Shown here piece after piece: positions 18,032 to 42,986 of a DNA stretch of 46,612 bases (positions within the stretch are counted from its first letter, which is position 1; each line of letters starts with the position of its first letter). This stretch comes from Actinotalea ferrariae. GTDB taxonomy: Bacteria; Actinomycetota; Actinomycetes; Actinomycetales; Cellulomonadaceae. The stretch is from assembly GCF_019733465.1 (NCBI RefSeq), contig NZ_JACVQL010000061.1, forward strand, positions 1 to 46,612. Direction: 5' to 3'. The notes beneath the pieces were generated by a model. That model saw nothing but the letters and a program-made list of their open reading frames with translations. It did not search any database and had not been told where the DNA came from. The translations under genes were made by a program, and so were the position numbers.

Positions 18032-18754
18032 TCAGCGCCCGGGAAGTCGCCTCTCGAGCGCCCTGATGCGGGCGGACGTCAACAGCATGACGACCCCGCA
18101 CGCAGCCGCAGCCGCCGCGACGCGTGGCAACAGCGCGTGCGCGTCCAACGCCACTACGGCTGCGGCCCCGATCAGCGCCGCGCACCACCTCATACCCACC
18201 ATCGCCCTGCGCGCCCGTGCCAAGGACGTCTCATCGCGCGCGTCCTGCGCTCGCCCGGCAGCGATCTCCTTGTCCTGTTGGACGCGTCGGCGGTCTTGGG
18301 CGGCTTGGCGGCGCCGTTCGGGCGCGGCGACCACCGTCTCCCACTCCCCGACGAGGAGCGCTGGGTCGATCACTCTCACGGGCACCTTCACCTTGTTGCC
18401 CTGGACCCAGTGCGGCGACTTCTCCGGGTCGTCGCGCAGGGTCAGGACGTCCTGTGAGAGCACCTCGTCCAGCTCGGCGAGCCGCTCGTTCGTGGACATC
18501 ATCAACCACGTGTAGTCGCGAGACGGGAAGCCGGCGACCAGCACTCCGTGCGCCTTCGCAGGCCCCCACGGCGTCGGCACGCCGGGGTCGATCGTCCACC
18601 GGTCGTCTGGTACCCACATGGGTGTCCCACCTTCGTCGCCGGACGGCGGACCTTGAAGGGAGTACGTGCGTGCCGCGTCGATGACCTTCACCGGGGTCAG
18701 GGCGTCACGGAACGTGGTCGCGTAGACGGTGGCAGCCCGGATGTCGTCGTCCAT
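18032..18754 (-). CDS. Coiled-coil membrane protein of a three-gene operon (first gene)
   Basis: 240 aa, function unknown. Residues 1-135 form a soluble domain (SRDYTWLMMSTNERLAELDE, SPHWVQGNKVKVPVRVIDPA). Residues about 145-185 are rich in Arg, Gln, Asp and Ala (ERRRQAAQDRRRVQQDKEIA) and predict a coiled coil. Two membrane segments follow at about 188-203 and 207-225 (ALIGAAAVVALDAHALL, AAAAACGVVMLLTSAR). A strong ribosome binding site (GAAGGAAAG) precedes the ATG at 18752-18754, which settles the start. As the head of the operon with the only recognisable soluble domain, it may be its sensor or effector; that is inference. Confidence 0.6.
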   Translation of the reverse strand: MDDDIRAATVYATTFRDALTPVKVIDAARTYSLQGPPSGDEGGTPMWVPDDRWTIDPGVPTPWGPAKAHGVLVAGFPSRDYTWLMMSTNERLAELDEVLSQDVLTLRDDPEKSPHWVQGNKVKVPVRVIDPALLVGEWETVVAAPERRRQAAQDRRRVQQDKEIAAGRAQDARDETSLARARRAMVGMRWCAALIGAAAVVALDAHALLPRVAAAAAACGVVMLLTSARIRALERRLPGR

Positions 18755-19075
18755 GCGTCTTTCCTTCGGCGGGTGCGAGGTGTCAGGCGGGGAACGAGAC
18801 GATCAGTTCGGCGACGCGCTCACTTCGAAACGCTAGCGTGCTACTTCGCGGTCCCGAGCTCGCCACCGCCAGACGACCGCGCCGACTACGGTGCGACCGC
18901 TCCGTTGAGGTGCCTCGTAAGCCGCGTTGAGGCTCCGCCATAGGGTGCCGGCACCTCAGCCCGGGTGGTACACGACGCTCTTGCGCGGAACTGCGCGGTG
19001 TATGGCGCTGTTGCCGCGTCAGAGCACGCGGATACGTTGCCGACCAAGAGCCGTCGAAGTTAGTGATGAGGTCCC
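18755..19075. other. Divergent intergenic region before the helicase operon
   Basis: About 320 bp without a convincing gene. A leftward reading near 18783-18830 (SERVAELIVSFPA, then stop) may be a remnant. It must hold the promoter of the leftward membrane operon and that of the rightward helicase operon. For the latter, TTGCCG (19037-19042) and TAGTGA (19061-19066), 18 bp apart, are a weak candidate just before the GTG at 19076. Confidence 0.35.
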
Positions 19076-20881
19076 GTGCCCAAGAGAAACCGGCATCGCG
19101 AGATCCAGCGCGCCGGGAAGGCGGCCGGCCACCAGGAGGGCAACCGAGCTCCGTCCCCGAGCGCGCATCCACCGCGGGCCGTCGGAAGGATCGGCACTGC
19201 CGACGACGCCCGGAGCCTGGCGGAACGGCTCCTCCGCGGCGCACCGTGGCCCGTCGCGGTGATCTCGATCTCATCCACCGCCTCGGAGCCGTACGTCGAC
19301 GCCCAGGCGCTGAAGGCAGAGGTTGGTGACCTCGCCGAGGTCGTCGTGATCCCGACCAACGAGATCACCTGGGCTTTCTCCGACGTGATGCCTCACATGA
19401 CGCAGGTCTACGGGGGCGCAGCACGTGTCTACCCCGTGGACCGCGGCTGGCAGTCCGACCCCTACAAGAGCCCGCTGCGGTTCGCGTGGTCTCGGGCGGA
19501 CTCGGCCCGCGTCGTAGAGGCGCTCGCTCGCGACGTCGCCAGGTTCGCGCTTCAAGCCGGGTCCGCGCACTCCACGAGCGCCGCTGACGGCGCGGTGCAG
19601 CGCTCCGGCACCGTGGAGGGCGTCGCGGGGGAGTCGCGCGCCATCGTGAAGCTCGACGACGGCGGCTACGCCACGATCTGGGCAGAGATGACCCTGGTCG
19701 GAGTTCTTATCGACCAGATCGCGCGTCGCGGGCAGGCGGTCTGCGGCTCGCTGGACGAGACCCGACGCCTCGACGTGCGCGCTCAGCTGCGGCCGGCCCA
19801 CGACGCACTCGCGGACTACGCACCCAACGCCAACGTGCTTGCGCGCGTGGCCTCAGTCGGGCCAGACCAGGTGACACTCGAGCTCTATCCGGGAGCCACT
19901 TCAGCGGTCCCCAAGGCGCTCATCACGGACAACCCCATGGACCATCTCGAAGACCTCTTCACGGAGGGGGAGGTGATCATCGCGCTCCTGGACTCGATCC
20001 AGCTGGGCTCGGACACCGTCAGCGCGAGCCTGCGGCTCGACGTCGTCGACGAGGAGTTGGGATGGACCGCGCCGCCTGCCGTGCTCAGCGGCGGACCGCC
20101 GTGGCTCCTGTTCCCACCCGTCGCAGCGGCTTCAGCAGCGCCGCCGCCGGGCCTCGACGGGGGCGCCCTCCTGCGCGACGTTACGGGCCCCGAACCCCTG
20201 GTCGAACGCATCATGCCGGCGGTCAACGACGGCCCTCCTCCCTTGGCGCGCTCAACGCCGGGCATCCGGGTGGCCACGCAATCATCAGACCACGCCGCGG
20301 GTCTGCAGGAGATCGAGAGCCTTCGCGCGGAGCTCCGTCAGCTCGAGCGAAAGCTCAACGAGGTGACACGCGACCGGGACGCATTGCGCACCCGGCTGCG
20401 CACTAGCGGTAGCCAGCGGCGCAAGGCTGAACGGGCTGTTCGGGACGGGGCACCGCGTGATGTCCACACGAGTGAACTTTTCGTCGACCCAGAGGAGCAG
20501 TTTCGCTTCGAGGTCCTCGTCGAGTGGGCGTCGCGAATCCCTGCCGGCCAGAAGGAGGAGCGTCCCCTCAGGCCGTACGCAGTTGGTCCTGACTTCCTCT
20601 CCAGTATCGATCGGACCCACGGCGCGGAGCGGAGCAAGGTCGTATCTGTGGCTGTAGAGGTCCTGACCGGTCTCGCAGCAGAGCTCGACTCGCGTGAGCT
20701 CCATCCCCTGCGCGTCGACGTATCGGGCGGCTCGCCCCCCGTCCGCCGTGGTGACGGTGCGACGTGCATGCGGGTCGCACTTCAACGGAACTCCCCGGCA
20801 GCACGGCGGATGCACTTCTGGCAGAACGGCGAACACGTCGAGTTCTCTCGCGTGGTCTCTCATGACGACTTCCGCCCATGA
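19076..20881 (+). CDS. Helicase-operon protein 1, unknown family
   Basis: 601 aa, soluble. A very basic N-terminus (PKRNRHREIQRAGKAAGHQE) is followed by two alpha/beta-like regions: about 60-230 (PWPVAVISISSTASEPYVDA, VVVIPTNEITWAFSDVMP, MTLVGVLIDQIARRG) and 235-330. A Pro/Ala-rich linker (about 340-400) leads to a coiled coil at about 408-455 (LQEIESLRAELRQLERKLNE) and a final domain of about 130 residues. I recognise no catalytic motif. The GTG at 19076 has a GATGAGG-like site just upstream. It heads a rightward operon with the 59-aa, 1,023-aa, helicase and 263-aa genes. A role as DNA- or partner-sensing subunit of an anti-phage helicase system is inference from context. Confidence 0.6.
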   Translation: MPKRNRHREIQRAGKAAGHQEGNRAPSPSAHPPRAVGRIGTADDARSLAERLLRGAPWPVAVISISSTASEPYVDAQALKAEVGDLAEVVVIPTNEITWAFSDVMPHMTQVYGGAARVYPVDRGWQSDPYKSPLRFAWSRADSARVVEALARDVARFALQAGSAHSTSAADGAVQRSGTVEGVAGESRAIVKLDDGGYATIWAEMTLVGVLIDQIARRGQAVCGSLDETRRLDVRAQLRPAHDALADYAPNANVLARVASVGPDQVTLELYPGATSAVPKALITDNPMDHLEDLFTEGEVIIALLDSIQLGSDTVSASLRLDVVDEELGWTAPPAVLSGGPPWLLFPPVAAASAAPPPGLDGGALLRDVTGPEPLVERIMPAVNDGPPPLARSTPGIRVATQSSDHAAGLQEIESLRAELRQLERKLNEVTRDRDALRTRLRTSGSQRRKAERAVRDGAPRDVHTSELFVDPEEQFRFEVLVEWASRIPAGQKEERPLRPYAVGPDFLSSIDRTHGAERSKVVSVAVEVLTGLAAELDSRELHPLRVDVSGGSPPVRRGDGATCMRVALQRNSPAARRMHFWQNGEHVEFSRVVSHDDFRP

Positions 20882-21057
20882 GCGACGTGTGGCGCGACAC
20901 ACCGTCCCGCCGACACCTTGGCGAGGCTTGGAGCCGCCTCCCCGTAGGTCTGCGCCGTGACGGCAGGACTGTGCGCGCGCATGATGCGGTCACCAACGCG
21001 GTGATCGCTGGCTCGTTTCCGACAGCGACTAAGCTTCGTGCTTCCTCGTGGCGATGA
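20878..21057 (+). CDS. Helicase-operon small protein
   Basis: 59 aa, basic: MSDVWRDTPSRRHLGEAWSR, LPVGLRRDGRTVRAHDAVTN, AVIAGSFPTATKLRASSWR. Its ATG overlaps the TGA of the preceding 601-aa gene by 4 bp (ATGA) and its stop lies 22 bp before the ATG of the 1,023-aa gene. It therefore fills what would otherwise be a roughly 200-bp hole in a tightly packed operon. The coupling and natural composition support it as a real gene; I recognise no family. Its charge would suit nucleic-acid or helicase binding. It could also be the displaced 5' end of the following gene after a frameshift. Confidence 0.55.
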   Translation: MSDVWRDTPSRRHLGEAWSRLPVGLRRDGRTVRAHDAVTNAVIAGSFPTATKLRASSWR

Positions 21058-21079
21058 CCTTTGCGATGAGGCACGAGCG

Positions 21080-24000
21080 ATGAAGCTGGTCGAGTGGAAC
21101 GAGGTGCTCCTAAGCGACCTCCGCAGCCGAGGGCGTCCCGAGCGACGCCTCTACCTCTATGTCGACCGCGAGACCCTCGCGGAGGCCGGCGCCCTTGACC
21201 AGCAGGAGGCGTTTGACGACTTCTGCCAGGCGTTCCGCGACGCACGTGGGTCCCGGCCCTTCGCGCTGGGTGCCAGCGCAGCGGCCCGGTGGGCCGGACG
21301 TGGCTTCGACGGCGAGCCGCCGTTCGTCGCGGACCTGGCCATGACCGTGCTCGCAGTGACGGAGGAACCGATCGGTGCGCCGCACGGTGTGTACCGGACC
21401 CAGAACAGCCTCCTGGGTCGCCCGGCTGAGGCGGAGGCCCCTGCGGGGTACGGCGACGACGTCCCGACCATGTGGCAGGTCTGGAACCGGTGGCTCGAAG
21501 GCGCAGGGTCTGCACTCGGCCGGTCTAGTGCGAAGACCCACCACGTGTGGCGCTGGCAGGGCTGGGCCAGGAGCCAAGGACTGGTACGCCACCGCGACCG
21601 CTTGGTCATCGAGCAGTTCGTGCAGGAGTGCGGCGGCGGCACCGGGGCGATCGACGTGAAGGACCTCGTTGTCTGGATGCGCTATCGCGGAGCGGTATGC
21701 GCGGAACTCTTAAGTCGTGTCGAGCACGACGAGGCGGCACTGGAAGTGGTTCAGGACGTCGTTGACGACGAGGTGGCCCGGTGGCGTCGAGAGGGTCCCC
21801 GGGAGTCGAGGCAGCGCACAGCACGGGGACTGCTCCTCTACGACGACTGGTCTGAGGAGCTTTGCGGTGTCGTCCACGCGGACGTGGCTCTCGTCGGTCA
21901 GGTTGTCAGCGTGGGACACGGGGAGTCCCTAACGGTCGACGAGTACACCCCGACCGTGCGGGTCGCTGTCAACGGAGCACCCTCCGCCTGGCTGCATGCC
22001 GGTATGGAGCACGCCCTCACGCCGAAGCGGTCCGTCATGTTCGGCGGCGGGAGCGTGTTCGTGTTCCACGACGAGCCTGAGCTCGAGGGTCGGGTGCAGA
22101 CCCAGGCCGCGTCGCACCACGTGCCTCATCACGTCCTCGTTCACGACAGCCGTCGGCGAGATGTGGAGCAAGCCCTTCGAGCGGGAGGCTCGACCGCGAC
22201 CTCGCGGCCGGTGTTCGACGGCTGGTCCTGGTTCGACGACGTCGTTCTCCCCCGCGAGGCGCCGCTCCTTCGCGCACTGGGTTTGAGCGCGACTATGCCG
22301 CCTGTTGCCGAGTCCCTGTCCCTGGTGGGAGGCATGCGCCTGGGGCGAGCCCACCAGTACCTCTGCGGCCACGAGCCCGACGTGGCACTGCCCTCCTCGG
22401 ATGCCCGTGTCGTCGTTGACGGTACGGGTGTCGCACCAACTCACGAGGCCCCGCCGCGGGTGCGCCTCGCGGAGATCGGCCTCGCCCCCGGTGACCACGC
22501 GGTCGAGGATCCCAAGAGCAGGCTCACCTTCCGGACGCTGGCGTTCGTGCGGCAGCACGCCGAGCACGAGCCCGTTCTCCGTCCCGGACGACACGACAGT
22601 GGAGACACCTGGACGTTCGCCGATGCGCGCCATGGCCCCGGAGAAGGGCCCGGCCTGGCCGGTGCCCGCGCCATTGGCATCGACGTGCGTGAGCCGGTGC
22701 TGCTACACCGGCCGGGATCCGAGTACCTCGTGCTGACTGAGGACGGTTCGGTGCAGCAGGTGCAGCCACTGCGACCGCGATGGCTCGGCCGTCAAGGTCT
22801 CGAGCCTCAGGGCCTGGACGTCGACGGCCTGGCGTCGCGCATGGAGGGCGCCGCCGTCGCACTCGCGAGGAGCCCTCGGACTGGCGCCGTTGTGGCCGCT
22901 CGGTGCGGCGCGGTGCGTCACGTGGAAGGGGCGGTGCAGCACGTGCCCCGCCCGGACCTGGTTGCCGCCCTGATCTCCGGGCCGGAGTGGAAGTGGGCGG
23001 GAGAGCAGGCAGACGATCTCGCCAGGAAGCTCCTCTCACGCGCACTCCGGTGGAACGCTCCGGCCTCGAAGAGCAAGCCGCCGACATCAGCACCCCAGGT
23101 CGCCCAGCGCCCCGGAGTCGCCGAGGGAACGCTCGACAACCCGTTCGACGAGGTGCTGATCTGGCTCTCTGAGCGAGAGAGCGCGTCCGCGACTCGCGAG
23201 GACTTCATGAGGTCATGGGTCTGGGTCTGCGAGAAGCTCGGACGGCACGACATCGCGAGCGACTGGCGTCGTTCGCTGCAGACTCTGGCCGATCTCGGGC
23301 ACGTCGAGCAGGACTTCTCGCGGGGCCGTGTCTTCGCCGCACCGGCCGCGGCAGTCGCGCTGCCCGAGGCCAATGGGCTGTTCTGCCTTGCCGGCGCTCG
23401 CCCGGCACGCCTGATCGAGCGTCTCGACGACCCCGACGACACTGACCCCGTCGTGGCTGACGGCGTCGCGGTGACGAGCCTCGAAATGCGCACGGCGGTC
23501 GACAGCCGCGGCCGAGCGACCGCACCCACCGCCGTGTACATGGAGATGGAGCCACGTCACGCCACTCTGGTGCGTGCCGCGTACGAGCGGTTGGGCGTCG
23601 TACTCCACGGCTGCACCGGTCGGTGGCTCATCGACACGATGCCGAGTCTCGACCGCCGAGTGAAGTCGGGACAGCACTTCAGCCATCCCCCCGGGGCGGA
23701 CGCGCACATCTACGCGGCGGTGCAAGGCGAGTGGCGATGGATCCGGACTTACGACATCGACCGCAAGGGCATGTACCGGTTCCGGCAGGGGCACAGGAGC
23801 GTGTTCGCGTGGCGGTCACAGCCGGGAGGGCAGCTCGTCGAAGTAGAGCCGGCCGCCGGGCGCTGGCTCGCCCGCCGCTCTCTCGCGCGCGTGACGCTCG
23901 TCCACGAGCACTTCGCCGACCGGCTTCTGGTCGCTGAGGACCTACCGCTCCCCGCGACGCTCCGTCGCGCGCTCGTGCTCCGGTCCGGCATGCCCGGCTA

Positions 24001-24151
24001 CGACGTCCGGTGCCGGCTCCCGAGCGGTGGCGCTGAGGTGCACATGCGGGCGTACGAGAACGTCAACGCTGCCGTTGCGCAGCAGGTGGCCCACATCCTC
24101 GGAGCGGAGCTGCGCTCTGAGTACGACCAAGTGAAGGACATCGATGTCTGA
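21080..24151 (+). CDS. Helicase-operon protein 2, large unknown (possible DruH/DruG- or DISARM-type partner)
   Basis: 1,023 aa from the ATG at 21080, preferred over the GTG at 21038 because GATGAGG lies 8 bp upstream. No membrane segment. The N-terminal half has a basic, Trp-rich helical region near 130-165 (WRWQGWARSQGLVRHRDRL). Residues about 689-757 (FDEVLIWLSERESASATRED, WRRSLQTLADLGHVEQD) look like a winged helix. The C-terminal 250 residues have conserved-looking aromatic motifs (EWRWIRTYDIDRKGMYRF). No nuclease or ATPase motif is obvious. The stop overlaps the helicase start by 8 bp, so it is very probably its obligate partner. Large partners without recognisable motifs are known beside DruE-type helicases; which family this is cannot be settled by eye. 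Confidence 0.6.
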   Translation: MKLVEWNEVLLSDLRSRGRPERRLYLYVDRETLAEAGALDQQEAFDDFCQAFRDARGSRPFALGASAAARWAGRGFDGEPPFVADLAMTVLAVTEEPIGAPHGVYRTQNSLLGRPAEAEAPAGYGDDVPTMWQVWNRWLEGAGSALGRSSAKTHHVWRWQGWARSQGLVRHRDRLVIEQFVQECGGGTGAIDVKDLVVWMRYRGAVCAELLSRVEHDEAALEVVQDVVDDEVARWRREGPRESRQRTARGLLLYDDWSEELCGVVHADVALVGQVVSVGHGESLTVDEYTPTVRVAVNGAPSAWLHAGMEHALTPKRSVMFGGGSVFVFHDEPELEGRVQTQAASHHVPHHVLVHDSRRRDVEQALRAGGSTATSRPVFDGWSWFDDVVLPREAPLLRALGLSATMPPVAESLSLVGGMRLGRAHQYLCGHEPDVALPSSDARVVVDGTGVAPTHEAPPRVRLAEIGLAPGDHAVEDPKSRLTFRTLAFVRQHAEHEPVLRPGRHDSGDTWTFADARHGPGEGPGLAGARAIGIDVREPVLLHRPGSEYLVLTEDGSVQQVQPLRPRWLGRQGLEPQGLDVDGLASRMEGAAVALARSPRTGAVVAARCGAVRHVEGAVQHVPRPDLVAALISGPEWKWAGEQADDLARKLLSRALRWNAPASKSKPPTSAPQVAQRPGVAEGTLDNPFDEVLIWLSERESASATREDFMRSWVWVCEKLGRHDIASDWRRSLQTLADLGHVEQDFSRGRVFAAPAAAVALPEANGLFCLAGARPARLIERLDDPDDTDPVVADGVAVTSLEMRTAVDSRGRATAPTAVYMEMEPRHATLVRAAYERLGVVLHGCTGRWLIDTMPSLDRRVKSGQHFSHPPGADAHIYAAVQGEWRWIRTYDIDRKGMYRFRQGHRSVFAWRSQPGGQLVEVEPAAGRWLARRSLARVTLVHEHFADRLLVAEDLPLPATLRRALVLRSGMPGYDVRCRLPSGGAEVHMRAYENVNAAVAQQVAHILGAELRSEYDQVKDIDV

Positions 24152-27100
24152 GACTTCGCACGCCCCTCTGACCCCTCTTGGGCTGAAGTCCTACCTTGAA
24201 GAGGCGTTCCTGCGGTTCTACGAGACGGCGTACGAGGTTCGGGATCGGGGAGTACGAGCCGAGCGCCGACGGCTGCTGACTGAGTCCGGCGCGGCCTTCA
24301 CCGAGCCGCTCATCGAGCTCCTTCCGCGGTACCGGTCATCGTCTGCATCGGTGGCCGAGGTCACTGAGCGGCTGGGGGTCCCCGAGGCGAGTGGGCTGGT
24401 GCGCGCTGGACTCCTGCCCTACGACCACCCGTACACGCACCAGGACGCCGCGCTTCGAGCGAGCGACGCAGGGCGAGACGTCATCGTCGGAACCGGCACG
24501 GGTTCGGGCAAGACCGAGGCGTTCCTTCTGCCGGTGCTCTTGGACCTCGTCCGGGAGTCGCGGGACTGGGGTCCCGCCGCTGCAGACACGGCTGCCACGT
24601 CGTGGTGGCGGCGCTCCGGTGCCTACGTGCCGCAACGACAGGGCGAGAGCGGCCGTGACCCGGGGGTGCGCGCGTTGCTGCTCTACCCCATGAACGCTCT
24701 CGTCGAGGACCAGTTGATCAGACTTCGAGCGGCGCTCGACTCGCCAGCCGCACGTGAGTGGTTCGACGCGAACCGGCCGGGTCACCGCTTCTACTTCGGC
24801 CGCTACACGGGGCGCACGCCAGTGCCTGGGTCCCGAGCGTCGGCGAGCGTCGACCGGGTCAACCGTCTCCGGTCGCTGATGAAGGACGCAGACCGTCGGC
24901 ACGAGCAGCTGCTGCGCCGTATCGCTGAGGGCGCGATCACCGACGACCACGCCCGCTACTTCCTCCCCGCGCTGGACGGGGCGGAGATGCGGTCCCGCTG
25001 GGACATGCAGGACCGCGCTCCCGACATCCTGATCACGAACTACAGCATGCTGTCGATCGCACTCTCGCGGTCCGATGAGCAGAGCATGATCCACCAGACC
25101 CGTCGCTGGCTGGATGGCGGCGAGGGCCGTCGGTTCACTCTGGTAGTTGACGAGCTGCACATGTACCGCGGTACCGCGGGGACCGAGGTCGCCTACCTGC
25201 TGCGCCGGCTGTTCCACGCGCTGGGGCTGGACGAGAATCTGGACCGCCTGCGGGTCATCGGAACCTCCGCCAGCATCGTCGACGACGAGGAAGGCCGGCA
25301 GTTCCTGCGTGAGATGTTCGGAAGGCCCGCCGCGCGCTCGTTCGACTTCGTGCGGTCCTCCCAGGACCTTCCTCCTGGTGCTGGTGACCTTCAGCAGTGG
25401 GCCCCGGGACTTGCCGCAGGAGGTGGTGGGAGCTCACTTGGTGTCGCGCCGTCGGACGAGGACATCGCGCATGCTCTCGCGAACGCCCTCACGACCGATG
25501 GACATGTTCGACCGGCCCGCGTCTCCACGGTCTCGGAGCGACTGTTCCCCCAGAGCTCGCCAGAGCTCCGGGACCGAGCCCTCGAGGGCCTGGTCGAGCA
25601 CGTCGCGAGGCAGGAGCAGCCGGCCGTCCGGCTCCGCGCGCACTACTTCGCCCGGACTCTCCAGGGACTGTGGGCGTGCGCGCGTCCCGACTGCCCGGAG
25701 GTCGAGGCCGAGGACCGTTCCGCGGGGCGACGCATAGGAAAGATCTACGCCGCCGCGCGACTGACGTGCGAGTGCGGGTCCCGAGTCCTCGAGCTTCTCT
25801 ACTGTCAGTCGTGCGGGGAGAGCATGCTCGGCGGGTACGTCGCCCTCGCGGGTACTCGGCAGTTCCTAATCCCGACGACGGCGAACCTTGACGACCTGCC
25901 TGACTACGCGACCATGCAGCGCGACGCGTCGAGCTACCGGGTGTACTGGCCTACGGACCGCTCACCGGTCGTGGGCAAGCCGTGGGAGCGCAAGGGCACG
26001 ATGCTCCCGGGTGACTCACGAGCGCCGGTCTACAAGATGGACTTCGTACGTGCCGCGCTCAAGTCCGGGACCGGACAGCTGACCCACACAGCCCAAGGCG
26101 CGACCGGGATCACCTACAGGCTCCGAGCGGACGGCGCGGAGTCCCGTATGCCGGCCTTCCCGACCCGGTGCCCGTCGTGCGGCGACGACTGGGAGTACGT
26201 CAGCAAAGGCTCGGTCGAGGACAGGCGACGGTCCGGTTCGCCGATCCGCACGCAGGGTGTCGGTTTCGACCGCGCGAACCAGGTGCTCACCGGGGCACTC
26301 AAGCGCCGGCTGCAGTCGAGCCTCGTCGTCTTCTCCGACAGTCGGCAGGGCGCCGCCAGAGTCGCGGCCAACCTCGAGCTCGCGCACTACCTCGACCTCG
26401 TCCGAGCCCTCGTGCTCGAGGCGCTGTCCGGTGCGCAGGGAGCCGTTGACCTCGCCGAGGCGTACGTCCGCGGAGCCGACACCAGCGAGGCGGCGCAGGC
26501 GGCGTACTCGGCGATCGAGGCCGAGTCTCAGCCGACGGCTACCGCTCTGATGAAGCGGGCCAACGGGATGTCACTGACCAAGCTCGACGAGGAAGCGCTG
26601 GCGGCCTTGGCGCGCCGGGACACGGGCAGCCTCAACCTCGTGGAGGTCGTCACCAAGATCGGTCCGCGCCTGCTCGACGTCGGGGTCAACCCCGCCGGTC
26701 CCGCCCCGAGCCTGCAGCAGACCAAGTCAGGGAGGCCCTGGTCGACCCTCTACGACTGGGAAGCGAGCCCTGTCCGGGTGCGCCCAGTTCTCGACCAGGA
26801 GGGGCGAGAGCTGCTCGGGAACATCGAGGCGGCCCTCGGGACCCAGGTGATCCGGACCGTCTTCGCCGGTGGCGACCGTGATGTCGAGGCGCTGGGCATC
26901 GCCCGCGCGGTGCCGACGACGCCGTTCCGACCGTCGGGAGTGCCGACTGACGTCGCCGACGAGGTGGCCTCCTCGCTGATCCGTATCGTCGGCCGTCGGC
27001 GTCGCACGATCTGGACGAGCGACGGTGGAGACAAGTGGCCGACCCATACCCGCGACTACGCGCAGGCGGCGGCGGACGCGGCGAAGCTGCCGATCACCGG

Positions 27101-29489
27101 TGAGGACCTTCTCGACGCGTTCACCTCGCACATGAAGGCCGGTGCGGCGGCCGGCTTCCGGCTGACCCCGGACTCCATCAGGCTGGACCTCGCCGCCGAC
27201 AACGACCTCTGGCGGTGCTCCACGTGCCAGACCCGGCACCTTCACCGCAGTGCCGGCGTCTGCGTCGCCTGCCTCCGCCCGCTGACGGAGGTGCAGGCCC
27301 GGTCCGAGATCGACGAGCCGTACTACACCTGGCTCGCCACGCAGGACGGAGGCGTCTACCGACTCCACTGCGAGGAGCTCAGCGGGCAGACCGACGTGCA
27401 GGAGGCACAAGCCCGCCAGGCGCGGTTCCAGGGCGTCCTCGTCCAGGACCAGGACGAGCGCCCGGAGGTCGATGTCGTCGACACGGTCGACGTCCTCTCG
27501 GTCACGACGACGATGGAGGCCGGGGTCGACATCGGCGCACTGAAGGGCGTCGTCATGGCCAACATGCCCCCGCAGAGGTTCAACTACCAGCAGCGCGTAG
27601 GTCGGGCAGGCCGACGCTCGTCGCACTTCTCGGCCGCGCTCACCGTGTGTCGGGGTGCTCGTAGCCACGACGAGCACTACTTCGCCAACCCCGAGTCGAT
27701 CACTGGTGACGACCCGCCCCAGCCGTTCCTCGACACGTCCTCGCTTGCGATCCTCCAGCGAGCCTTCGCGGCCGAGGTCCTCACCCGCGCCTTCAGAAGG
27801 TGCGAGACAGAGGTCGCAGGGTTCGAGCCCGGGCGCAGCGTCCACGGGCAGTTCGGGTCGGTCGAGGAGTGGCAGAGCTCGGACGGCCTCAGGAACTTTA
27901 TTGCCACGGTGCTCACGGAGATGCACGACGACGCAGAGCGGATCGCGAGAAGTCTGCTGCACGAGGCACGCGTGGAAGTCACTGCGAGGGAGCTGGCTGA
28001 TTGGGCGTCGCGTGACCTCCTCCACCTCGTGTGCGAGGCCGTCGAGTCGGCACGTGTCCCCGATCTCTCGGAGGCGCTTGCGCAGCACGGGGTACTGCCG
28101 ATGTTCGGCTTCCCGACCACGACGCGGGTCCTCTACACGTCATGGCCGAAGGGCAACCAGGAGGGCGCACTCGACCGGGACGCCCCGATCGCCCTGTCCG
28201 AGTTCGCTCCGGGCGCTGAGCTCGTCAAGGACAAGCGGATCCACACGGCTGTGGGCGTCGTGGACCTCCGCCAGCGGACGAACGGCAGCTGGTACGAGGG
28301 GGACGCGCCGCTGTCGCAGCGTAGGCAGGCCGGCGTCTGCCGGTCGTGCCTGGCGTTCTCTGACACGCCCGGCTTGGCGTGCGCTGTGTGTGGAGCGACT
28401 GCTCCTGAGTACGAGGTCATCGAAACCGCGGAGCCAGCTGGTTACCGGACGTCCTTCAAGCCGCGCGACTACGAGCAGCTCGGCGAGCCCACTGCACGGG
28501 CGTCGCAGCCCCGCATGACCCTGGGTGATGTCGAGTACGTCGAGCGCGGCGAGAACGCGGTCGTGCGCTCGGCGAACACAGAGATCGTGTCGGTCAACGA
28601 CAACCGTGGCCGGCTGTTCACCTTCGTCAGAGCGAGCCGTCCGTACGAGGGCAAGCAGAACGAGCAGGCGGGGCTGCTAGCCACCGACCTCCTGGAGCGA
28701 GACAGGCGTCAGCAGGTCGGTCTGAACTATGTCGAGGCGAGCGGGGAGCCGCTGTCACCCGTCGCGCTCGCCGCCCGTCGACGCACCGACGTCCTGAGCC
28801 TGGGAGTGGCGTCGATGCCGACCGGCCTTGCGATCGACCCACGCGAGCCAGCGGGCCGTGGGGCGTGGGGCTCGCTGGGATTCCTCATCCGGGATGCGGC
28901 AGCGAAGTGGCTCGACATCGGCTCCGACGAGATGGAGGTGGGCGTCCACCCGGTGACCAACGGCTCTGGGGTTCGTGGTGAGGTCTTCATCGCTGACACG
29001 CTCGAGAACGGCGCTGGGTATGCCGTCCGGTTGGCCGAGCGCTTCGAGGAGCTGCTCGATGTCGCCGACGAGCACGCGGGGCGACTGGCGCGGCACGGCG
29101 CCCCCGCTTGCGACTCCAGCTGCTACCAGTGCCTCCGCGACTACAGCAACCGCAGCTGGCACGCTCTCTTGGACTGGCGGCTTGGAGTCGACCTGCTCGA
29201 CCTGCTCCGGGGAAGGAGCATCGACCTCGGACGTCACGCCGAGCGCGACTTACGTGCGGCATCGGCCGTCGCGGGCGACTTCGGGCTGCAGGTGGAGGGC
29301 ATCGAGCTGCCGACGGTCATCGGCCGGCGAGGAGTGCTCGCAGTAACCCATCCTTTTGAGTCCACCACGCCGGTGGACGCGGCAGAGCGGGTCCGGGCAG
29401 TCCGCGACCGGTACCCGGACGCGCGGTTCGCGTCTTCGTTCGAGATGCTCCGGCGGCCGGGAGCACTCCTGGCCGGGCTGATGGGCTGA
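24144..29489 (+). CDS. DruE-like DEAD/DEAH-box helicase with C-terminal DUF1998-type domain
   Basis: 1,781 aa. Superfamily 2 helicase motifs are clear: Walker A GTGTGSGKTEAF (about 116-127), DELHMYRG as motif II (about 336), TSAS as motif III, TTTMEAGVDIGALKG and QQRVGRAGRR (about 1118-1155) as motifs V and VI. Four cysteine pairs that could bind zinc are interspersed (CECG...CQSCGES near 555, CPSCGDDW near 675, CSTCQ...CVACLRP near 1025, CRSCLA...CAVCG near 1399). The C-terminus has CDSSCYQCLRDYSN plus WHALLDWRLG near 1655, the DUF1998 signature. The size and layout fit DruE of Druantia; MrfA/YprA helicases share the domains but are less than half as long, and DISARM splits them between two proteins. 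Likely moves along DNA using ATP to recognise or process foreign DNA. Confidence 0.85.
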   Translation: MSETSHAPLTPLGLKSYLEEAFLRFYETAYEVRDRGVRAERRRLLTESGAAFTEPLIELLPRYRSSSASVAEVTERLGVPEASGLVRAGLLPYDHPYTHQDAALRASDAGRDVIVGTGTGSGKTEAFLLPVLLDLVRESRDWGPAAADTAATSWWRRSGAYVPQRQGESGRDPGVRALLLYPMNALVEDQLIRLRAALDSPAAREWFDANRPGHRFYFGRYTGRTPVPGSRASASVDRVNRLRSLMKDADRRHEQLLRRIAEGAITDDHARYFLPALDGAEMRSRWDMQDRAPDILITNYSMLSIALSRSDEQSMIHQTRRWLDGGEGRRFTLVVDELHMYRGTAGTEVAYLLRRLFHALGLDENLDRLRVIGTSASIVDDEEGRQFLREMFGRPAARSFDFVRSSQDLPPGAGDLQQWAPGLAAGGGGSSLGVAPSDEDIAHALANALTTDGHVRPARVSTVSERLFPQSSPELRDRALEGLVEHVARQEQPAVRLRAHYFARTLQGLWACARPDCPEVEAEDRSAGRRIGKIYAAARLTCECGSRVLELLYCQSCGESMLGGYVALAGTRQFLIPTTANLDDLPDYATMQRDASSYRVYWPTDRSPVVGKPWERKGTMLPGDSRAPVYKMDFVRAALKSGTGQLTHTAQGATGITYRLRADGAESRMPAFPTRCPSCGDDWEYVSKGSVEDRRRSGSPIRTQGVGFDRANQVLTGALKRRLQSSLVVFSDSRQGAARVAANLELAHYLDLVRALVLEALSGAQGAVDLAEAYVRGADTSEAAQAAYSAIEAESQPTATALMKRANGMSLTKLDEEALAALARRDTGSLNLVEVVTKIGPRLLDVGVNPAGPAPSLQQTKSGRPWSTLYDWEASPVRVRPVLDQEGRELLGNIEAALGTQVIRTVFAGGDRDVEALGIARAVPTTPFRPSGVPTDVADEVASSLIRIVGRRRRTIWTSDGGDKWPTHTRDYAQAAADAAKLPITGEDLLDAFTSHMKAGAAAGFRLTPDSIRLDLAADNDLWRCSTCQTRHLHRSAGVCVACLRPLTEVQARSEIDEPYYTWLATQDGGVYRLHCEELSGQTDVQEAQARQARFQGVLVQDQDERPEVDVVDTVDVLSVTTTMEAGVDIGALKGVVMANMPPQRFNYQQRVGRAGRRSSHFSAALTVCRGARSHDEHYFANPESITGDDPPQPFLDTSSLAILQRAFAAEVLTRAFRRCETEVAGFEPGRSVHGQFGSVEEWQSSDGLRNFIATVLTEMHDDAERIARSLLHEARVEVTARELADWASRDLLHLVCEAVESARVPDLSEALAQHGVLPMFGFPTTTRVLYTSWPKGNQEGALDRDAPIALSEFAPGAELVKDKRIHTAVGVVDLRQRTNGSWYEGDAPLSQRRQAGVCRSCLAFSDTPGLACAVCGATAPEYEVIETAEPAGYRTSFKPRDYEQLGEPTARASQPRMTLGDVEYVERGENAVVRSANTEIVSVNDNRGRLFTFVRASRPYEGKQNEQAGLLATDLLERDRRQQVGLNYVEASGEPLSPVALAARRRTDVLSLGVASMPTGLAIDPREPAGRGAWGSLGFLIRDAAAKWLDIGSDEMEVGVHPVTNGSGVRGEVFIADTLENGAGYAVRLAERFEELLDVADEHAGRLARHGAPACDSSCYQCLRDYSNRSWHALLDWRLGVDLLDLLRGRSIDLGRHAERDLRAASAVAGDFGLQVEGIELPTVIGRRGVLAVTHPFESTTPVDAAERVRAVRDRYPDARFASSFEMLRRPGALLAGLMG

Positions 29490-29502
29490 GGAGGAGTGAC
29501 TG

Positions 29503-30294
29503 GTGGCTGACGACGAGTACATCGAGGTTCCGGCTGTCGTCCGGATGCCCAAGGGTGAGCGCCTCGCCGACTCCAGGAAGACCGAAGGATGGAGCCGTGG
29601 CTTCACCCCGAAGTCCTCGGACAAGGGGCCTGAGCACGTAGAGATCCGCCTTACGGGGAAGGGTGACGCGTCGGCGGACGGGCCGGAGCCGGAGGTCGTG
29701 TACATCCACGAGTATGTCGAGCCGCAGAAGACGCGCGAAGAGGAGGAGGCCGAGGAGCTGCTGCGGCTGCTCGTTGTCATCGCAGTAGTCAAGGCCGCCG
29801 AGTGGGCTCAGCCGCACGTGCGGCGTCTCCTCACCGAGCACGTCCTCCCGTTCCTGGTCGAGAAGCGCAAGCAGTGGCGAGAGCGGGTGGCGAGACGCAG
29901 GGCGGCCAAGGGGAGATCGAGTGGAACAGGGCCTGGTGCGGTTCGACCTGCCGAAGGCACCCGCGCGGCCCTGAGCGTCTACGAGGCCGACATGACCAGC
30001 GACGAGGCTCGTCGGCACCTGGTGGAGCTGCTGATCGCCGAGCACTTCGTCAACGAGAAGCGGCGGCTCCTCGCGAACGCAAGGATCGCCGAAGATGTCC
30101 CCTCGGAAGTCGCCGGTGCGGTCCAGGCTCTGACACCGAAGCAGGTCGCAAAGGCGCTCGAGTCGATCTTGGCCTCGAAAGCAACCGTGCTCGATGACAT
30201 CAGGTGGGTGCTCGCGGCTGGGGGCGAGGGGTATCCGCGGCAGCTAGAGGGCAGCCGCCTGCACGAGGTGCTGCGCCTCACGCAGAACGAGTAG
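29503..30294 (+). CDS. Helicase-operon protein 3, unknown, charged
   Basis: 263 aa. The GTG at 29503 follows the helicase stop by 13 bp with an excellent ribosome binding site (AGGAGG), so it belongs to the same operon. Residues about 75-100 (QKTREEEEAEELLRLLVVIA, VVKAAEWAQPHVRRLL) form a strongly charged and then hydrophobic helix, possibly amphipathic or membrane-associated. A basic patch follows (EKRKQWRERVARRRAAKG). The last 90 residues are helical (MTSDEARRHLVELLIAEHFV, TPKQVAKALESILASKATV). No family recognised. Hydrophobic-helix proteins often act as the killing subunit in defence operons, but nothing here proves that. Confidence 0.55.
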   Translation: MADDEYIEVPAVVRMPKGERLADSRKTEGWSRGFTPKSSDKGPEHVEIRLTGKGDASADGPEPEVVYIHEYVEPQKTREEEEAEELLRLLVVIAVVKAAEWAQPHVRRLLTEHVLPFLVEKRKQWRERVARRRAAKGRSSGTGPGAVRPAEGTRAALSVYEADMTSDEARRHLVELLIAEHFVNEKRRLLANARIAEDVPSEVAGAVQALTPKQVAKALESILASKATVLDDIRWVLAAGGEGYPRQLEGSRLHEVLRLTQNE

Positions 30295-30530
30295 GAGCGC
30301 CACCGAAGGCGGTCGGCGACGCGCCGTCCAAGCCGCCCTGTGGCAGGTCGGCCACCACGCATGAGAGTCAGGTCGGCCGCCGCGACGCTGCCCGGAGTGC
30401 TGGCGAGCACCCTGAGTCTTGCCGGGGGTGCGAACCGGTGGCCCTTGCACGGCGCGTCGTGCTTGCGCGTTAGGCTCGTCCGCGGCAAGCTGCAACACAT
30501 GTTCGATCACATGACGACTGAGGTGGCACG

Positions 30531-31991
30531 ATGAGTGAGGCCGGGGGCTTCCGCTACGCCGACCTGTTCGCAGGTATCGGCGGCTTCGCCGCGGTGCTCG
30601 AGGCACTCGGTGGCGAGCACGTGTACTCGGTCGAGATCGACGAGCACGCCTCCAGGGTGTACGCCCTCAACTGGGGCCGCAGCCCCTACGGCGACATCAC
30701 CAAGGACGCCACCGATGACGTCATGAACGTCGGTCAGCACGACGTCCTCGCCGCCGGCTTCCCTTGCCAGCCCTTCTCCAAGAGCGGTGCTCAGAAGGGT
30801 ATGGACGAGATCCGGGGGACACTCTTCTTCAACATCATGGAGGTGGTGCAGGCCCACCACCCCACCCTCGTGGTGCTGGAGAATGTCCGCAATCTCGCGG
30901 GCCCACGGCACGTCCACGAGTGGGAGGTGATCATCGAACGCCTGCGCGCGGAGGGTTACCAGGTCTCAGAGACGTCGGCGATCTTCTCCCCTCACCAGAT
31001 CGACCCGGCGTTCGGAGGGGCCCCGCAGGTCCGGGAGCGGGTCTTCATCACCGCGACGCTTGTACCCGAGGGGCACGTGGCCGATCCTCATGTGCCGCCC
31101 GTTTCGCTGCCCCCCCACGTCCGCATGAGCCGCGAGTGGGACCTCGCCGATGACCTCCCGCTTGACCCGAGACGCCAGGTGCCCGGTACGGACCTCGGCG
31201 ACGACGAGATCGTGTGGGTCGACCACTGGGAACAGTGGGTGCAGTTCATGTACGCGCTACGGGCGTCGGACGCTGACGCCGCCGGTGAGCCGGCACGCCG
31301 CCTACCCGGCTTCCCGATATGGGCCAACGTGTGGGTGGCCGAGAGGCTGCGGAACGAGTTGATGTACCCGGGAGGGGTGCGTGTCCCGGCGTGGAAGGCC
31401 AACTTCTACACGAAGAACTGGGACCTGTACGACCGGCTTCGTCGCGTCGACGGCCCATGGCTCCGCAAGTGGCTGGCGACGACGCGGACATTCCCGGAGA
31501 GCCGACAGAAGCTCGAGTGGCAGGCGCAGGACGAGACTTCTCTCTGGAAGTGCGTCCTGTCACTGCGGCCGTCCGGCATCAGGGCGAAGCGCATGACGCA
31601 CCTGCCTGCGCTCGTCGCGATCACGCAGACACCGATCCTTGGTCGGCGTGACGAAGAACATCGCTCTCCTCGAGAGGCCGCTCGTCGCCTGTCTCCTCGG
31701 GAGGCCGCTCGACTCCAAGGACTCCCCGACGAGTTCGCCTTCGGGCAGCAGCGGGACGCGCTGACGTACAAGCAGCTCGGCAACGGAGTCAACGTTGGCG
31801 TGGTGTGGAACGTGCTCAAGGCCCACGTCGAGCGCGACAGGGACCTCTTGCTGGCCTCCGAGCGCGGCCACGCGATCTACGACTCGATCGCGTCGGCACC
31901 GGACTCGCCCCAGGAGCCGGTGCGAGAGGCGCTGTCCCGTAGACGAGTTGCTGTAGATGCCGACGAGCTGGTGCCGGCTGGCACGTCCTGA
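30531..31991 (+). CDS. DNA (cytosine-5)-methyltransferase
   Basis: 486 aa. Motif I DLFAGIGGFAAVLEALGG (11-28) binds S-adenosylmethionine. GFPCQPFSKSG (76-86) carries the catalytic Cys of motif IV; LENVRNL (116-122) is motif VI; QVRERVFI is motif VIII; RLQGLPDEF and KQLGNGVNVGVV at the C-terminus are motifs IX and X. The variable target-recognition region lies between about 200 and 370. It starts 236 bp after the helicase operon, with GAGGTGG as ribosome binding site and a -10-like TAGGCT at 30471-30476, so it may have its own promoter. Followed by vsr and a nuclease gene. It probably protects host DNA from that nuclease; it could also be the modification arm of the upstream system, as DruM is in Druantia type II. 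The target sequence is not predictable here. Confidence 0.92.
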   Translation: MSEAGGFRYADLFAGIGGFAAVLEALGGEHVYSVEIDEHASRVYALNWGRSPYGDITKDATDDVMNVGQHDVLAAGFPCQPFSKSGAQKGMDEIRGTLFFNIMEVVQAHHPTLVVLENVRNLAGPRHVHEWEVIIERLRAEGYQVSETSAIFSPHQIDPAFGGAPQVRERVFITATLVPEGHVADPHVPPVSLPPHVRMSREWDLADDLPLDPRRQVPGTDLGDDEIVWVDHWEQWVQFMYALRASDADAAGEPARRLPGFPIWANVWVAERLRNELMYPGGVRVPAWKANFYTKNWDLYDRLRRVDGPWLRKWLATTRTFPESRQKLEWQAQDETSLWKCVLSLRPSGIRAKRMTHLPALVAITQTPILGRRDEEHRSPREAARRLSPREAARLQGLPDEFAFGQQRDALTYKQLGNGVNVGVVWNVLKAHVERDRDLLLASERGHAIYDSIASAPDSPQEPVREALSRRRVAVDADELVPAGTS

Positions 31992-32019
31992 CGTGTGCAC
32001 ACCCAGGGGGTGAGCGCCT

Positions 32020-32484
32020 GTGTCGAGAGAGCGGAGCGAGAGGGCCGGCGCCGAACCGTCCCGCCGGCGACCCGCACCCGGTGTGTCCGCGCGGTACTCC
32101 CGACTCGCCCGGACGGGAACAGCACCGGAGATGCTGCTCAGGCGTGAGCTGCACCGACGAGGCAAACGGTTCCGCGTCGACACGCGCATCGAGGGTCTAC
32201 CGCGTCGCAAAGTCGACATCGCATTCATCCGGTGGCGCGTGTGCGTGCTGGTGGACGGCTGCTTCTGGCACTCATGCCCTGACCACGGGACCGTGCCGCG
32301 GACCAACCGGGAATGGTGGGTGTGGAAGCTCGAGCGCACCCGTCAGCGGGACGCTGACACGGACGCAGCGCTGAGCGCTCTGGGCTGGACGGTGGTCCGT
32401 GTGTGGGAGCACGTGCCGCCCGTTGTCGCCGCTGATCTCGTGGAGGCCGCGTTGAGGCGCGCTGTCGCCGACCGCGACGACTGA
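32020..32484 (+). CDS. vsr: Very short patch repair endonuclease Vsr
   Basis: 154 aa. Nicks beside T:G mismatches left by deamination of 5-methylcytosine, protecting the sites modified by the adjacent methyltransferase. Visible family motifs are RYSRLARTGTAPEMLLRREL, KVDIAFIRWRVCVLVDG with its metal-binding Asp, GCFWHSCPDHGTVPRTN (the Cys/His zinc site) and the C-terminal ALGWTVVRVWEHVP. The 28-bp gap after the methyltransferase gene indicates co-transcription, as is usual for dcm-vsr pairs. GTG start with an AGGGGG site upstream. Confidence 0.93.
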   Translation: MSRERSERAGAEPSRRRPAPGVSARYSRLARTGTAPEMLLRRELHRRGKRFRVDTRIEGLPRRKVDIAFIRWRVCVLVDGCFWHSCPDHGTVPRTNREWWVWKLERTRQRDADTDAALSALGWTVVRVWEHVPPVVAADLVEAALRRAVADRDD

Positions 32485-32596
32485 GGCCGCCAACGGCGGG
32501 CGCACCTTCCGATGGAGCACGGTGCGGCCCCCGGGCTACAGAGGGACCGAGCGTGTCGACCGCGCGGTCGATGGCGGCGCTGGTAGCAATGGCGCC

Positions 32597-33820
32597 ATGG
32601 GATCCGAGATCGTCGATCAGATCGCGCTGGATGGTTCGCTCGTTCATGACAGGGACGTGACCCTGTCGCCACGCCGGAAGCGCGAACTCGTGTTCGACGC
32701 CCTTCCGGGAGCCTGGAGCGAAGAACTTGGTGGACGCTCGGTCGTTCGCTTCCACGACCAAGTCATCTTGACCAAGCAGGTCACGCACCTCGGTCGACCG
32801 TGGGAGGCATTCAAGAAGCGGATCCAGATCCCACGATACTGGGTCGATGTCGAGGAGCGCGGACGCGCTCACGGCCTCACCGTGCGGTTTATAGGCGTCT
32901 ACCACCATCACGACACGACGATCTTCGTCGACTTCGACCCGGCGACGTACGTCAAGCGCAAGGCGAACAACTCAGCGGCGCACGTCTCGACAAACGACCT
33001 CTTCCAAGCGCAGACGCTCGGGCAGTTCTCACGAGAAGACAAGAACGGCAACCGACTCACCAGCGTGCGTGCCGACCAGTTCGCAACCTACCTACTCGAA
33101 GGCTACGAGGAGAAGAACCCGCACATCGAGGTGCTTGACCGCTTCAGCGAGGTGTTCCTTGACGGGGCCCGCGTCGACGGCCTGACCGCGGTGCAGGAGA
33201 TGCACGCCAGCCGCTGGCCCGATCGTTTCCAGAACGAGTGGGCGGGCTTTTACGTCGAGTACCGCTTGAGTCGTTACCTGGCCGAGCACGACCTTACTGG
33301 CCTGGTCAGGGTACAGAAGGAGAAACGCAGAGGGGAGTTCGACTACGACCTGCGGTTCCTCAGGGACGGCGTACTGGAGCACTACGGTGATCTCAAGGCT
33401 TCGAGCGTCGCGGTCAAGGACTCGCCGGGAAACGATGCAGCGAGCTTCTTCCGCTGCCTTGCCGAAACCGGGAGGTTCTGGTACGTCATCTACGAGCACG
33501 AGACCTGGCACGGGCGCGACAGCGGTAACACTTCAACGATTGCCTGGAATGACTGGCGCATGTCAGTCGGACACGTCGGGAGAAGCAAGGTCTACGACCC
33601 TCTGTCCTACGCTGGGCGCTTCAAGGAGGCGGTGCGGTTTGTCAGCGTCAAGGTCCTCGAGGTCAACCAGGCGAACGTCAGCAGCGTCCTCGGGGATTTT
33701 CAAGAGGGATTCAGGCAGCCTGACGGATCAACCCGGAAGGGGAAGGTTATGATTAAGAAGAAGGACATCGACAACTTCCTGATCTACACGAAGTCGATCG
33801 AGTTGCTGCCCGAGTCGTAG
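32597..33820 (+). CDS. Putative Type II restriction endonuclease, PD-(D/E)xK
   Basis: 407 aa. The C-terminal part contains GEFDYDLRFL (E247, D249, D251) and, 14 residues on, YGDLKASS (D265-x-K267), the acidic residue followed by D-x-K expected of a PD-(D/E)xK nuclease. Other conserved-looking blocks are PWEAFKKRIQIPRYW, FIGVYHHHDTTIFVDF, SREDKNGNRLTSVRAD and FQNEWAGFYVEYRL. With the cytosine methyltransferase and Vsr immediately upstream it completes a Type II restriction-modification unit. The ATG at 32597 is chosen because the earlier part of the frame (from 32522) overlaps non-coding-like sequence. GC content is lower than in the upstream operon, hinting at a separate origin. The recognition site is unknown. 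Confidence 0.75.
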   Translation: MGSEIVDQIALDGSLVHDRDVTLSPRRKRELVFDALPGAWSEELGGRSVVRFHDQVILTKQVTHLGRPWEAFKKRIQIPRYWVDVEERGRAHGLTVRFIGVYHHHDTTIFVDFDPATYVKRKANNSAAHVSTNDLFQAQTLGQFSREDKNGNRLTSVRADQFATYLLEGYEEKNPHIEVLDRFSEVFLDGARVDGLTAVQEMHASRWPDRFQNEWAGFYVEYRLSRYLAEHDLTGLVRVQKEKRRGEFDYDLRFLRDGVLEHYGDLKASSVAVKDSPGNDAASFFRCLAETGRFWYVIYEHETWHGRDSGNTSTIAWNDWRMSVGHVGRSKVYDPLSYAGRFKEAVRFVSVKVLEVNQANVSSVLGDFQEGFRQPDGSTRKGKVMIKKKDIDNFLIYTKSIELLPES

Positions 33821-33857
33821 TCCCAACAATGCACCTAACCGGTGAGTGAGACTGCAG

Positions 33858-33894
33858 CCAGGGCGACGGCCCTGGGTTCTCCCCTGACGGGGAG
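33858..33894. other. Twin hairpins between convergent genes
   Basis: CCAGGGC/GCCCTGG (33858-33875) and CTCCCC/GGGGAG (33879-33894) are two perfect stem-loops between the convergent restriction enzyme and HEPN genes. No T-tract follows on either strand (an A6 run lies at 33900-33905 on the plus strand), so they may slow or end transcription without being classical terminators. Confidence 0.4.
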
Positions 33895-33920
33895 CGCCCA
33901 AAAAACACCAGCCAGCCCGG

Positions 33921-34550
33921 TCACGGCCAGGGATGGGTGCCGGTCAGTGCGTGGGTCTTCAACTTGGCAGCCTGGTCGATCAACTCGACGACTCGTTTCA
34001 CACGCGCAAGGTGCTCCTGAGCCAGGCCCTTCTTGAAGTTTGTGGGCGTGCCGCCTGTATGCGCCACCTCGCCACGCAGTCGGACGAGCGATTCGATCCC
34101 TGACTTGTCCGCCTCTTCAAGCGCGCCCCACACATCCACGCCGACTCGTTCAAACAGCGCGATGGTGTTCTTGGCGTTCGCGGTGTTCATACCAAACGGG
34201 GGTTTGTCGCCCTCGGTCCCCTTGGCGTACTCGGTGACGCACCGGGTCCAGAGTCCTTTCCAGCCGGGGTGGACGGAGTACTCCCACTGAGAGGGTTGCA
34301 TCGCCTCGATCGCTTTGCGTGCGGTCGCCGGCACGTTTTCAGGTCTGGTGTCCTTGGCAAGGTGTCGGGTGACTTCGACCGCTAGGTCCTCGACGTACCC
34401 TTCCCAGGCGGCGTACGTGAGCACGACCGCTGCGACGAACATGCTTGTCTCTTGCGCGGTCGGTTTGCCCCTGCCTTGCTTCGTACCTTGCATGAGACGT
34501 TCGGGGTGTCCGATCGCTGTCTGGAAGGCCGCGAACGCACTACTGCTCAT
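33921..34550 (-). CDS. HEPN-domain protein (RiboL-PSP-HEPN type), putative ribonuclease
   Basis: 209 aa, helical. AAVVLTYAAWEGYVEDLAVE near residue 40-60 and LVRLRGEVAHTGGTP near 155-170 are the paired motifs of this HEPN group; RGEVAH gives the R-x4-H active site of HEPN ribonucleases. It lies 30 bp after the Rad50-like ATPase gene on the same strand, so it is probably the last gene of the ABC-three-component operon. HEPN RNases in defence loci degrade RNA and stop growth when infection is sensed. I infer it is a second, RNA-directed effector beside the DNA nuclease of the system. The motif is clear; the link to the operon rests on spacing. Confidence 0.75.
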   Translation of the reverse strand: MSSSAFAAFQTAIGHPERLMQGTKQGRGKPTAQETSMFVAAVVLTYAAWEGYVEDLAVEVTRHLAKDTRPENVPATARKAIEAMQPSQWEYSVHPGWKGLWTRCVTEYAKGTEGDKPPFGMNTANAKNTIALFERVGVDVWGALEEADKSGIESLVRLRGEVAHTGGTPTNFKKGLAQEHLARVKRVVELIDQAAKLKTHALTGTHPWP

Positions 34551-42832: not shown

Positions 42833-42986
42833 CCAGGGCCGCAGCCGCTGGGCGTCCACCGCCCTCTTGATCGGTGCCCACGCCGGGGCGGCTGTGCCCA
42901 GTTGCAGTCCTAACCTGTGCCCTCCTTGACCTGCGGAGATGCAACGCTGCTGGTCACGAAGTTGTCCAAAGAAGCCACAGCCAGAC

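Follow-up and report, generated by a model that had tools for sequence, protein, structure and literature searches.

What kind of system surrounds the very large helicase gene that sits in a run of co-directional genes in Actinotalea ferrariae? We examined a window of 46,612 nt, which is the whole stretch of DNA analysed (assembly GCF_019733465.1, contig NZ_JACVQL010000061.1); the cluster under study lies at positions 19076-30294, with all of its open reading frames (ORFs) on the + strand. The original prediction for this DNA had proposed a five-gene helicase operon, possibly a new subtype of Druantia, in which no Druantia partner of the helicase could be recognised. All five ORFs were found as described, encoding 601, 59, 1,023, 1,781 and 263 amino acids (aa). 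Profile comparisons lead us to a narrower reading, namely that the locus is probably (we put it at about 75%) a two-gene Druantia type IV anti-phage system made up of druFL and druE.

The helicase gene, druE (24144-29489, + strand), encodes a 1,781-aa YprA-like superfamily 2 helicase with an MZB/DUF1998 zinc module, and a large YprA-like helicase carrying such a module is the hallmark of Druantia. Against the PADLOC profiles the protein scored 1,741 bits with DruE4, 1,571 with DruE2, 654 with DruE1 and 408 with the best DruE3, compared with at most 30 bits for DrmA and a weak 41 bits for the BrxHI/BrxHII profile. Pfam found DEAD, Helicase_C and MZB domains. The motifs that had first drawn attention to this protein could all be located: Walker A as GTGSGKTE at residues 118-125, DELH at residues 336-339, the helicase C region, and the DUF1998-type CxxxCxxCL as C1656-C1660-C1663-L1664. 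In an alignment of five DruE sequences DELH and the zinc cysteines were invariant, as were six of the eight Walker A letters. A DruE profile also matched solved helicases, PDB 9wae_A with 1,017 bits and 9tu7_Y with 342 bits, both named just helicase; none of the papers listed for Druantia cryo-electron microscopy appeared to concern 9wae.

The second gene, druFL (21080-24151, + strand), overlaps druE by 8 bp (24144-24151), in agreement with the original prediction. Starting at a GTG, its ORF (21038-24151) would encode 1,037 aa; the ATG at 21080, a start that fits the N-termini of relatives, makes it 1,023 aa. We found that this protein is matched by two PADLOC profiles in succession, DruF4 along residues 4-575 (E 3.3e-31) and DruL4 along residues 690-1013 (E 1.4e-29), so that the type IV DruF is present and the type IV DruL is present as a fused domain, with no separate gene. 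According to Payne et al. (2021, PMC8565338), type IV Druantia comprises DruE, DruF and DruL and lacks DruM and DruG, which accompany DruE and DruF in type II; this was the one paper found in the literature on Druantia type IV or DruE-DruF. The fusion hides two known proteins, which is why the partner looked unknown by eye. The idea that the helicase lacks a recognisable Dru partner therefore falls, and the proposed new subtype is not supported: the partner carries the type IV DruF and DruL, and the remaining three ORFs show no link with DruE in the other loci examined. The idea that the fusion itself is an unmodelled form was also rejected. A 1,006-aa F+L protein from another locus (L011) matches two long PADLOC DruF2 profiles along its whole length (PDLC00016 and PDLC00023, with 1,030 and 1,011 positions), reaching 1,402 bits with the 1,011-position profile and 1,088 bits with the 1,030-position profile, so that long fused F-L forms are already modelled.

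We compared the pair with a set of 92 DruE loci, consisting of the window, the best 80 of at least 537 loci from genome contigs, 5 viral contigs and 6 further genomes. The loci from genome and viral contigs were fetched with the five-sequence DruE alignment, and the sample is ranked by similarity and not thinned for kinship. Its flanks are unequal, with less than 2.1 kb upstream of the core in 15 of the 91 other loci (including L037) and less than 0.9 kb after druE in 14 of the 92. Using profiles built here, DruF was found in 85 of the 92 loci, DruL likewise in 85 and both together in 81, as a rule in the order F-L-E. F and L form one reading frame in eight loci (the window, L011, L016, L017, L024, L044, L080 and L094). 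A FastTree phylogeny of 91 DruE proteins (quick MAFFT alignment, local support values, midpoint root) groups the window with loci from Dactylosporangium (L016), Micromonospora (L037), Intrasporangiaceae (L017) and Agromyces (L024) with a support of 0.988, and the same group without L024 has a support of 1.0. The order F-L-E is kept in these four closest relatives. The two parts are fused in four of the five clade loci; in L037 the match shifts frame at about residue 680 of the window protein, reflecting either a true split or a sequencing error. The only further families seen to be common to the window and these relatives are cytosine methyltransferases (four of the five loci) and Vsr (the window, L016 and L017).

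At the level of sequence, the identity of DruE, DruF and DruL, the fusion of the latter two and the conserved order F-L-E can be regarded as established. Samples of whole genomes show how rare the system is. Among 396 genomes of the phylum, the 1,023-aa protein had a match in just 1, that of the window itself, and the helicase in 6 of 396, again counting that genome. No plasmid match was obtained for DruFL. We conclude that the system is most likely of a known kind, a type IV Druantia reduced to two genes by fusion, from a small actinobacterial clade.

Several observations weigh against this assignment. The helicase scores almost as well with the type II profile of DruE as with that of type IV (1,571 and 1,741 bits), DruF2 profiles recognise the DruF part too (best E 1.9e-25, 87 bits compared with 106 for DruF4), and a methyltransferase scoring with the DruM2 profile is encoded 1 kb downstream of DruE. 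Taken together these three points make a type II-like reading possible. For DruG, no match of that name appeared among the PADLOC matches of 19 window proteins (the best 25 matches for two of them), with the presence of a DruG model in the library not established. A further point is the 263-aa gene, whose start 13 bp behind druE would suit co-transcription. As to function, searching solved structures with the DruF profile gave one match at E 0.19 and with the DruL profile none, and when all members of the DruF and DruL alignments were scanned with Pfam, matches appeared in single members alone, the best at E 0.002 and 0.05. As no solved relative of either protein was found by sequence, the role assigned to them is a guess, and the sensor function suggested below for DruFL is taken from the layout of type III.

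That no DruK nuclease gene was found raises the question of whether the locus is still active. A DruK-type gene of 199-425 aa, with the motifs of PD-(D/E)XK nucleases and a set of cysteines like that of Cas4, follows druE in 25 of the 92 loci. It starts between 124 bp before and 101 bp after the end of druE in 24 of them and 473 bp after it in one; L035 was not counted, its matches being more than 5 kb away on the other strand. The view of this gene as an unlisted Cas4-like nuclease was rejected, since PADLOC names DruK in all three members scanned. No paper linking Druantia to a Cas4-like nuclease was found. No DruK was detected in the window (six-frame search, best E 0.23) or in its four closest relatives. 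This result, together with the inactive C-terminal Vsr fold that Bell et al. (2025, PMC12458937) describe as predicted in type I and II DruE, could mean that this Druantia has decayed, losing both its nuclease and its defence function. We consider such decay very improbable, because druFL and druE are open and of full length with the helicase and zinc motifs kept. Moreover, the absence of DruK is common, the gene not being seen beside druE in 67 of the 92 loci, although 14 of the 92 reach less than 0.9 kb beyond druE.

The flanking ORFs could instead be working parts of a larger system, as the original prediction held. The 601-aa protein (19076-20881, + strand) partly matches the PADLOC candidate defence family HEC-07 (E 2.5e-11, residues 38-163), and the genes of the cluster share one strand, with the 263-aa gene (29503-30294, + strand) in its close position behind druE. 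A new five-gene system with the 601-aa and 263-aa proteins among its working parts nevertheless receives hardly any credence from us, given how these genes are distributed. Among the 91 other DruE loci, of which 76 include at least 2.1 kb upstream of the core, no member of the 601-aa family turned up at E 1e-3. Conversely, DruE, DruF and DruL were not found (E 1e-3) in any of ten loci around 601-aa homologues, which span 19-22 kb each and come from 6 of 12 plasmid records and 4 other genomes. Large Arthrobacter, Pseudarthrobacter, Curtobacterium and Glaciihabitans plasmids carry members of the family, and plasmids of Streptomyces, Frondihabitans and Tsukamurella match just the C-terminal part of the protein. 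No constant neighbour of the homologues was seen by eye in six annotated plasmid stretches, and the 601-aa protein had no match in phages or solved structures. It is separated from the 1,023-aa gene by 198 bp. The 59-aa ORF in between (20878-21057, + strand) has a coding score of -0.045 per codon, compared with 0.16 to 0.30 for seven other ORFs, three of which trained the model; it was not called by the codon model, its best match in the loci had E 0.29, and in all likelihood it is no gene. For the 263-aa protein, the 91 other DruE loci gave a single distant homologue, in L038, more than 7 kb from druE and on the opposite strand, and plasmids gave none. Homologues in 2 others of 296 genomes lie in 16-17-kb stretches, both without DruE. 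The 13-bp spacing makes co-transcription with druE likely; a role of the 263-aa gene as a partner of druE is not supported by these comparisons. As far as the available flanks reach, none of the 91 other DruE loci contains the five genes together; 15 of these loci, L037 included, extend less than 2.1 kb upstream, too little to demonstrate that an upstream 601-aa gene is missing. A five-gene operon thus does not hold up. Both grounds that had been named for giving up a new system largely apply: druFL, the one conserved partner, falls in a named Druantia type, and the five genes did not turn up together in the other DruE loci as far as their flanks reach.

Downstream of the cluster we found a restriction cassette, which bears on a different explanation. 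It consists of a cytosine-5 DNA methyltransferase (30531-31991, + strand; DruM2 profile PDLC00034 at 566 bits, also scoring as a type II methyltransferase; PF00145 E 5.6e-67), a Vsr mismatch endonuclease (32083-32484, + strand; PF03852 E 5.8e-11) and a type II restriction enzyme with an MTaX1 domain (32522-33820, + strand; PDLC03409 at 523 bits, PF20296 E 7.5e-25). The methyltransferase might be a DruM-like component that marks host DNA and leaves DruFL-DruE to act on phage DNA alone, as might be supposed for type II. Besides its DruM2 score, the placement of such enzymes speaks for this possibility. Cytosine methyltransferases were found within 10 kb of 34 of the 92 DruE operons on either strand (profile on called genes), and they crowd close to the operons: 31 of the genes lie no more than 4 kb away and 4 at a distance of 4-10 kb, compared with 238 and 226 other genes of at least 250 aa (odds ratio 7.4, p 1e-5). 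In the window clade they occur in four of the five loci, on both strands and from at least two subfamilies. Their placement near the operons is above random expectation, in counts that ignore kinship and come from a ranked sample of loci. A search of all ORFs gave a cytosine methyltransferase in 35 of the 92 loci; the gene calls miss L018, L019, L021 and L027 and add three, so the two counts disagree in seven loci. In 35 hand-picked genomes there were 75 PF00145 match rows, about 2 per genome, with some genes split over two rows, and 21 of the 35 had a cytosine methyltransferase in the fetched locus.

We nevertheless regard a methylation-coupled Druantia of this kind as unlikely. The window methyltransferase adjoins Vsr and a restriction enzyme, and the restriction enzyme was found in 2 other genomes of 246 searched (L125 and L126), where the same methyltransferase family adjoins both copies and Vsr one of them. 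No DruE was present in the 17-kb stretch around the pair in either relative, which makes the cassette look like an independent restriction-modification unit; the restriction enzyme had no plasmid match. Agromyces L024 belongs to the window clade and has no cytosine methyltransferase, and the excess near the operons weakens when eight further defence families serve as the reference (13 near, 10 far; p 0.01). In any case, restriction systems tend to accumulate in defence islands. A looser form of cooperation can be imagined, in which F-L-E Druantia works jointly with cytosine methylation. Restriction-modification cassettes of varied origin would be placed repeatedly within 4 kb, and DruFL-DruE, for which no nuclease gene of its own was found here, would act on unmethylated or freshly cut phage DNA exposed by the neighbouring restriction enzyme and host nucleases. 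We put this forward tentatively and think it distinctly doubtful. With respect to the preferred reading, a type IV system of druFL and druE, the restriction cassette and the three ORFs of 601, 59 and 263 aa are island neighbours, not shown as parts of Druantia by the comparisons made here.

How might druFL and druE act on their own? The type III DruE is described as a dimer with helicase activity on forked DNA and on DNA with 3' overhangs, for which DruH is the likely sensor (PMC13192584), and DruH-DruE in mycobacteria is described as blocking phage DNA circularisation and replication (PMC13316683). By analogy, we infer an action of DruE on phage DNA and a sensing or controlling role for DruFL. 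The two proteins are probably translated together by means of the 8-bp overlap. DruFL would recognise infection and control or dock DruE, as DruH supposedly does in type III. DruE would load on single-stranded or 3'-tailed phage DNA arising from entry or replication and would unwind or block the DNA so engaged. With no DruK found, cleavage would be left to other enzymes, and the phage DNA may be destroyed by host nucleases or by the adjoining restriction enzymes; alternatively, the helicase may block phage DNA metabolism without cutting.

The pair lies within an island, as had been predicted. A tRNA-Leu gene (2311-2394, + strand; ARAGORN) marks the left end. Among 18 other same-genus genomes searched, junctions were examined in three (G408, G410 and G407), where the end of the tRNA and the match of window positions 42985-42987 are 1-5 nt apart. 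Since the two adjoin in these relatives, about 40.6 kb, from 2397 to about 42986, was inserted in the window genome, and a tRNA-Leu island of this size is supported; the original prediction was right in placing a DruE-type system (DruE4 1,741 bits) in an actinobacterial tRNA island. Two further genomes (G402 and G398) have a post-tRNA spacing different from that of the three. The last 14 bases of the tRNA have no second exact copy anywhere in the window, no integrase was recognised among three ORFs scanned beside the tRNA, and a sigma-70 scan of 18700-34000 gave no promoter-like site. A Lamassu-like system also lies in the island, as does a restriction gene resembling type IV. The former occupies 34581-38253 on the - strand, with LmuA at 37189-38253, LmuC at 36578-37192 and LmuB at 34581-36785 (PADLOC), and the latter encodes a 737-aa protein (40619-42832, + strand) that matches PADLOC Orf5, type IV restriction and HEC-06 profiles. 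In addition, a 481-aa protein (8717-10162, + strand) has a putative type VII secretion system (T7SS) signal domain and a Tox-REase-2 domain, and a following 124-aa ORF that overlaps the end of its gene is perhaps its immunity gene.

Three arrangements in other DruE loci may be recorded here. In a Poribacteria locus (L050, 5385-7415) a 676-aa gene between DruF and DruL matches DruC1 (E 2.6e-15), a possible link to type I. In a Streptomyces locus (L039, 6319-9030) the 903-aa DruF gene also matches the window Vsr protein (E 3e-28), so that DruF may carry a Vsr domain there. In four Streptomyces loci of the sister clade (L018-L021) a gene of 510-515 aa lies 91-142 bp after druE, and the one in L018 gave hits with PDC-M01A and PtuA-like ATPase profiles.

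These results correct a tempting false lead, a seemingly unknown partner that consists of two fused known Druantia proteins. Detection rules that demand DruL as a gene of its own may miss such fused loci. With two genes in 8.4 kb, druFL-druE offers a compact natural construct for learning what DruF and DruL do, and the clustering of cytosine methyltransferases near the operons provides a testable idea on self-recognition.

Among known systems, DISARM and ARMADA both use a YprA-family helicase (as stated in PMC12458937), and this is the feature that the window shares with them. DISARM has DrmA, a separate DUF1998 protein DrmB and the PLD protein DrmC, whereas here the helicase and MZB module are in one protein, DrmA scores at most 30 bits and no PLD match was found among the cluster proteins with Pfam. 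The downstream methyltransferase differs from both systems in being a cytosine-5 enzyme, and PADLOC named no PglX- or BrxHII-like neighbour. Druantia type III (DruH-DruE) has the same layout of two genes, a large partner and a helicase, but the partner here is DruFL and the helicase scores 408 bits with DruE3 compared with 1,741 with DruE4; six cluster proteins gave no DruH-named match with PADLOC (among the best 25 of 62 matches in the case of the methyltransferase). Type II is nearer, with matches to its DruE2 and DruF2 profiles, a long fused F-L form modelled (L011) and a DruM2-scoring methyltransferase close by. It differs in that DruE and DruF of the window score higher with type IV, no DruG-named match was seen among the PADLOC matches listed, and the methyltransferase stands beside Vsr and a restriction enzyme. 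From type IV the window differs in having DruF and DruL as a single protein, in the lack of a DruK match and in the cytosine methyltransferase nearby, but DruE, DruF and DruL all match the type IV profiles and follow one another in the order F-L-E.

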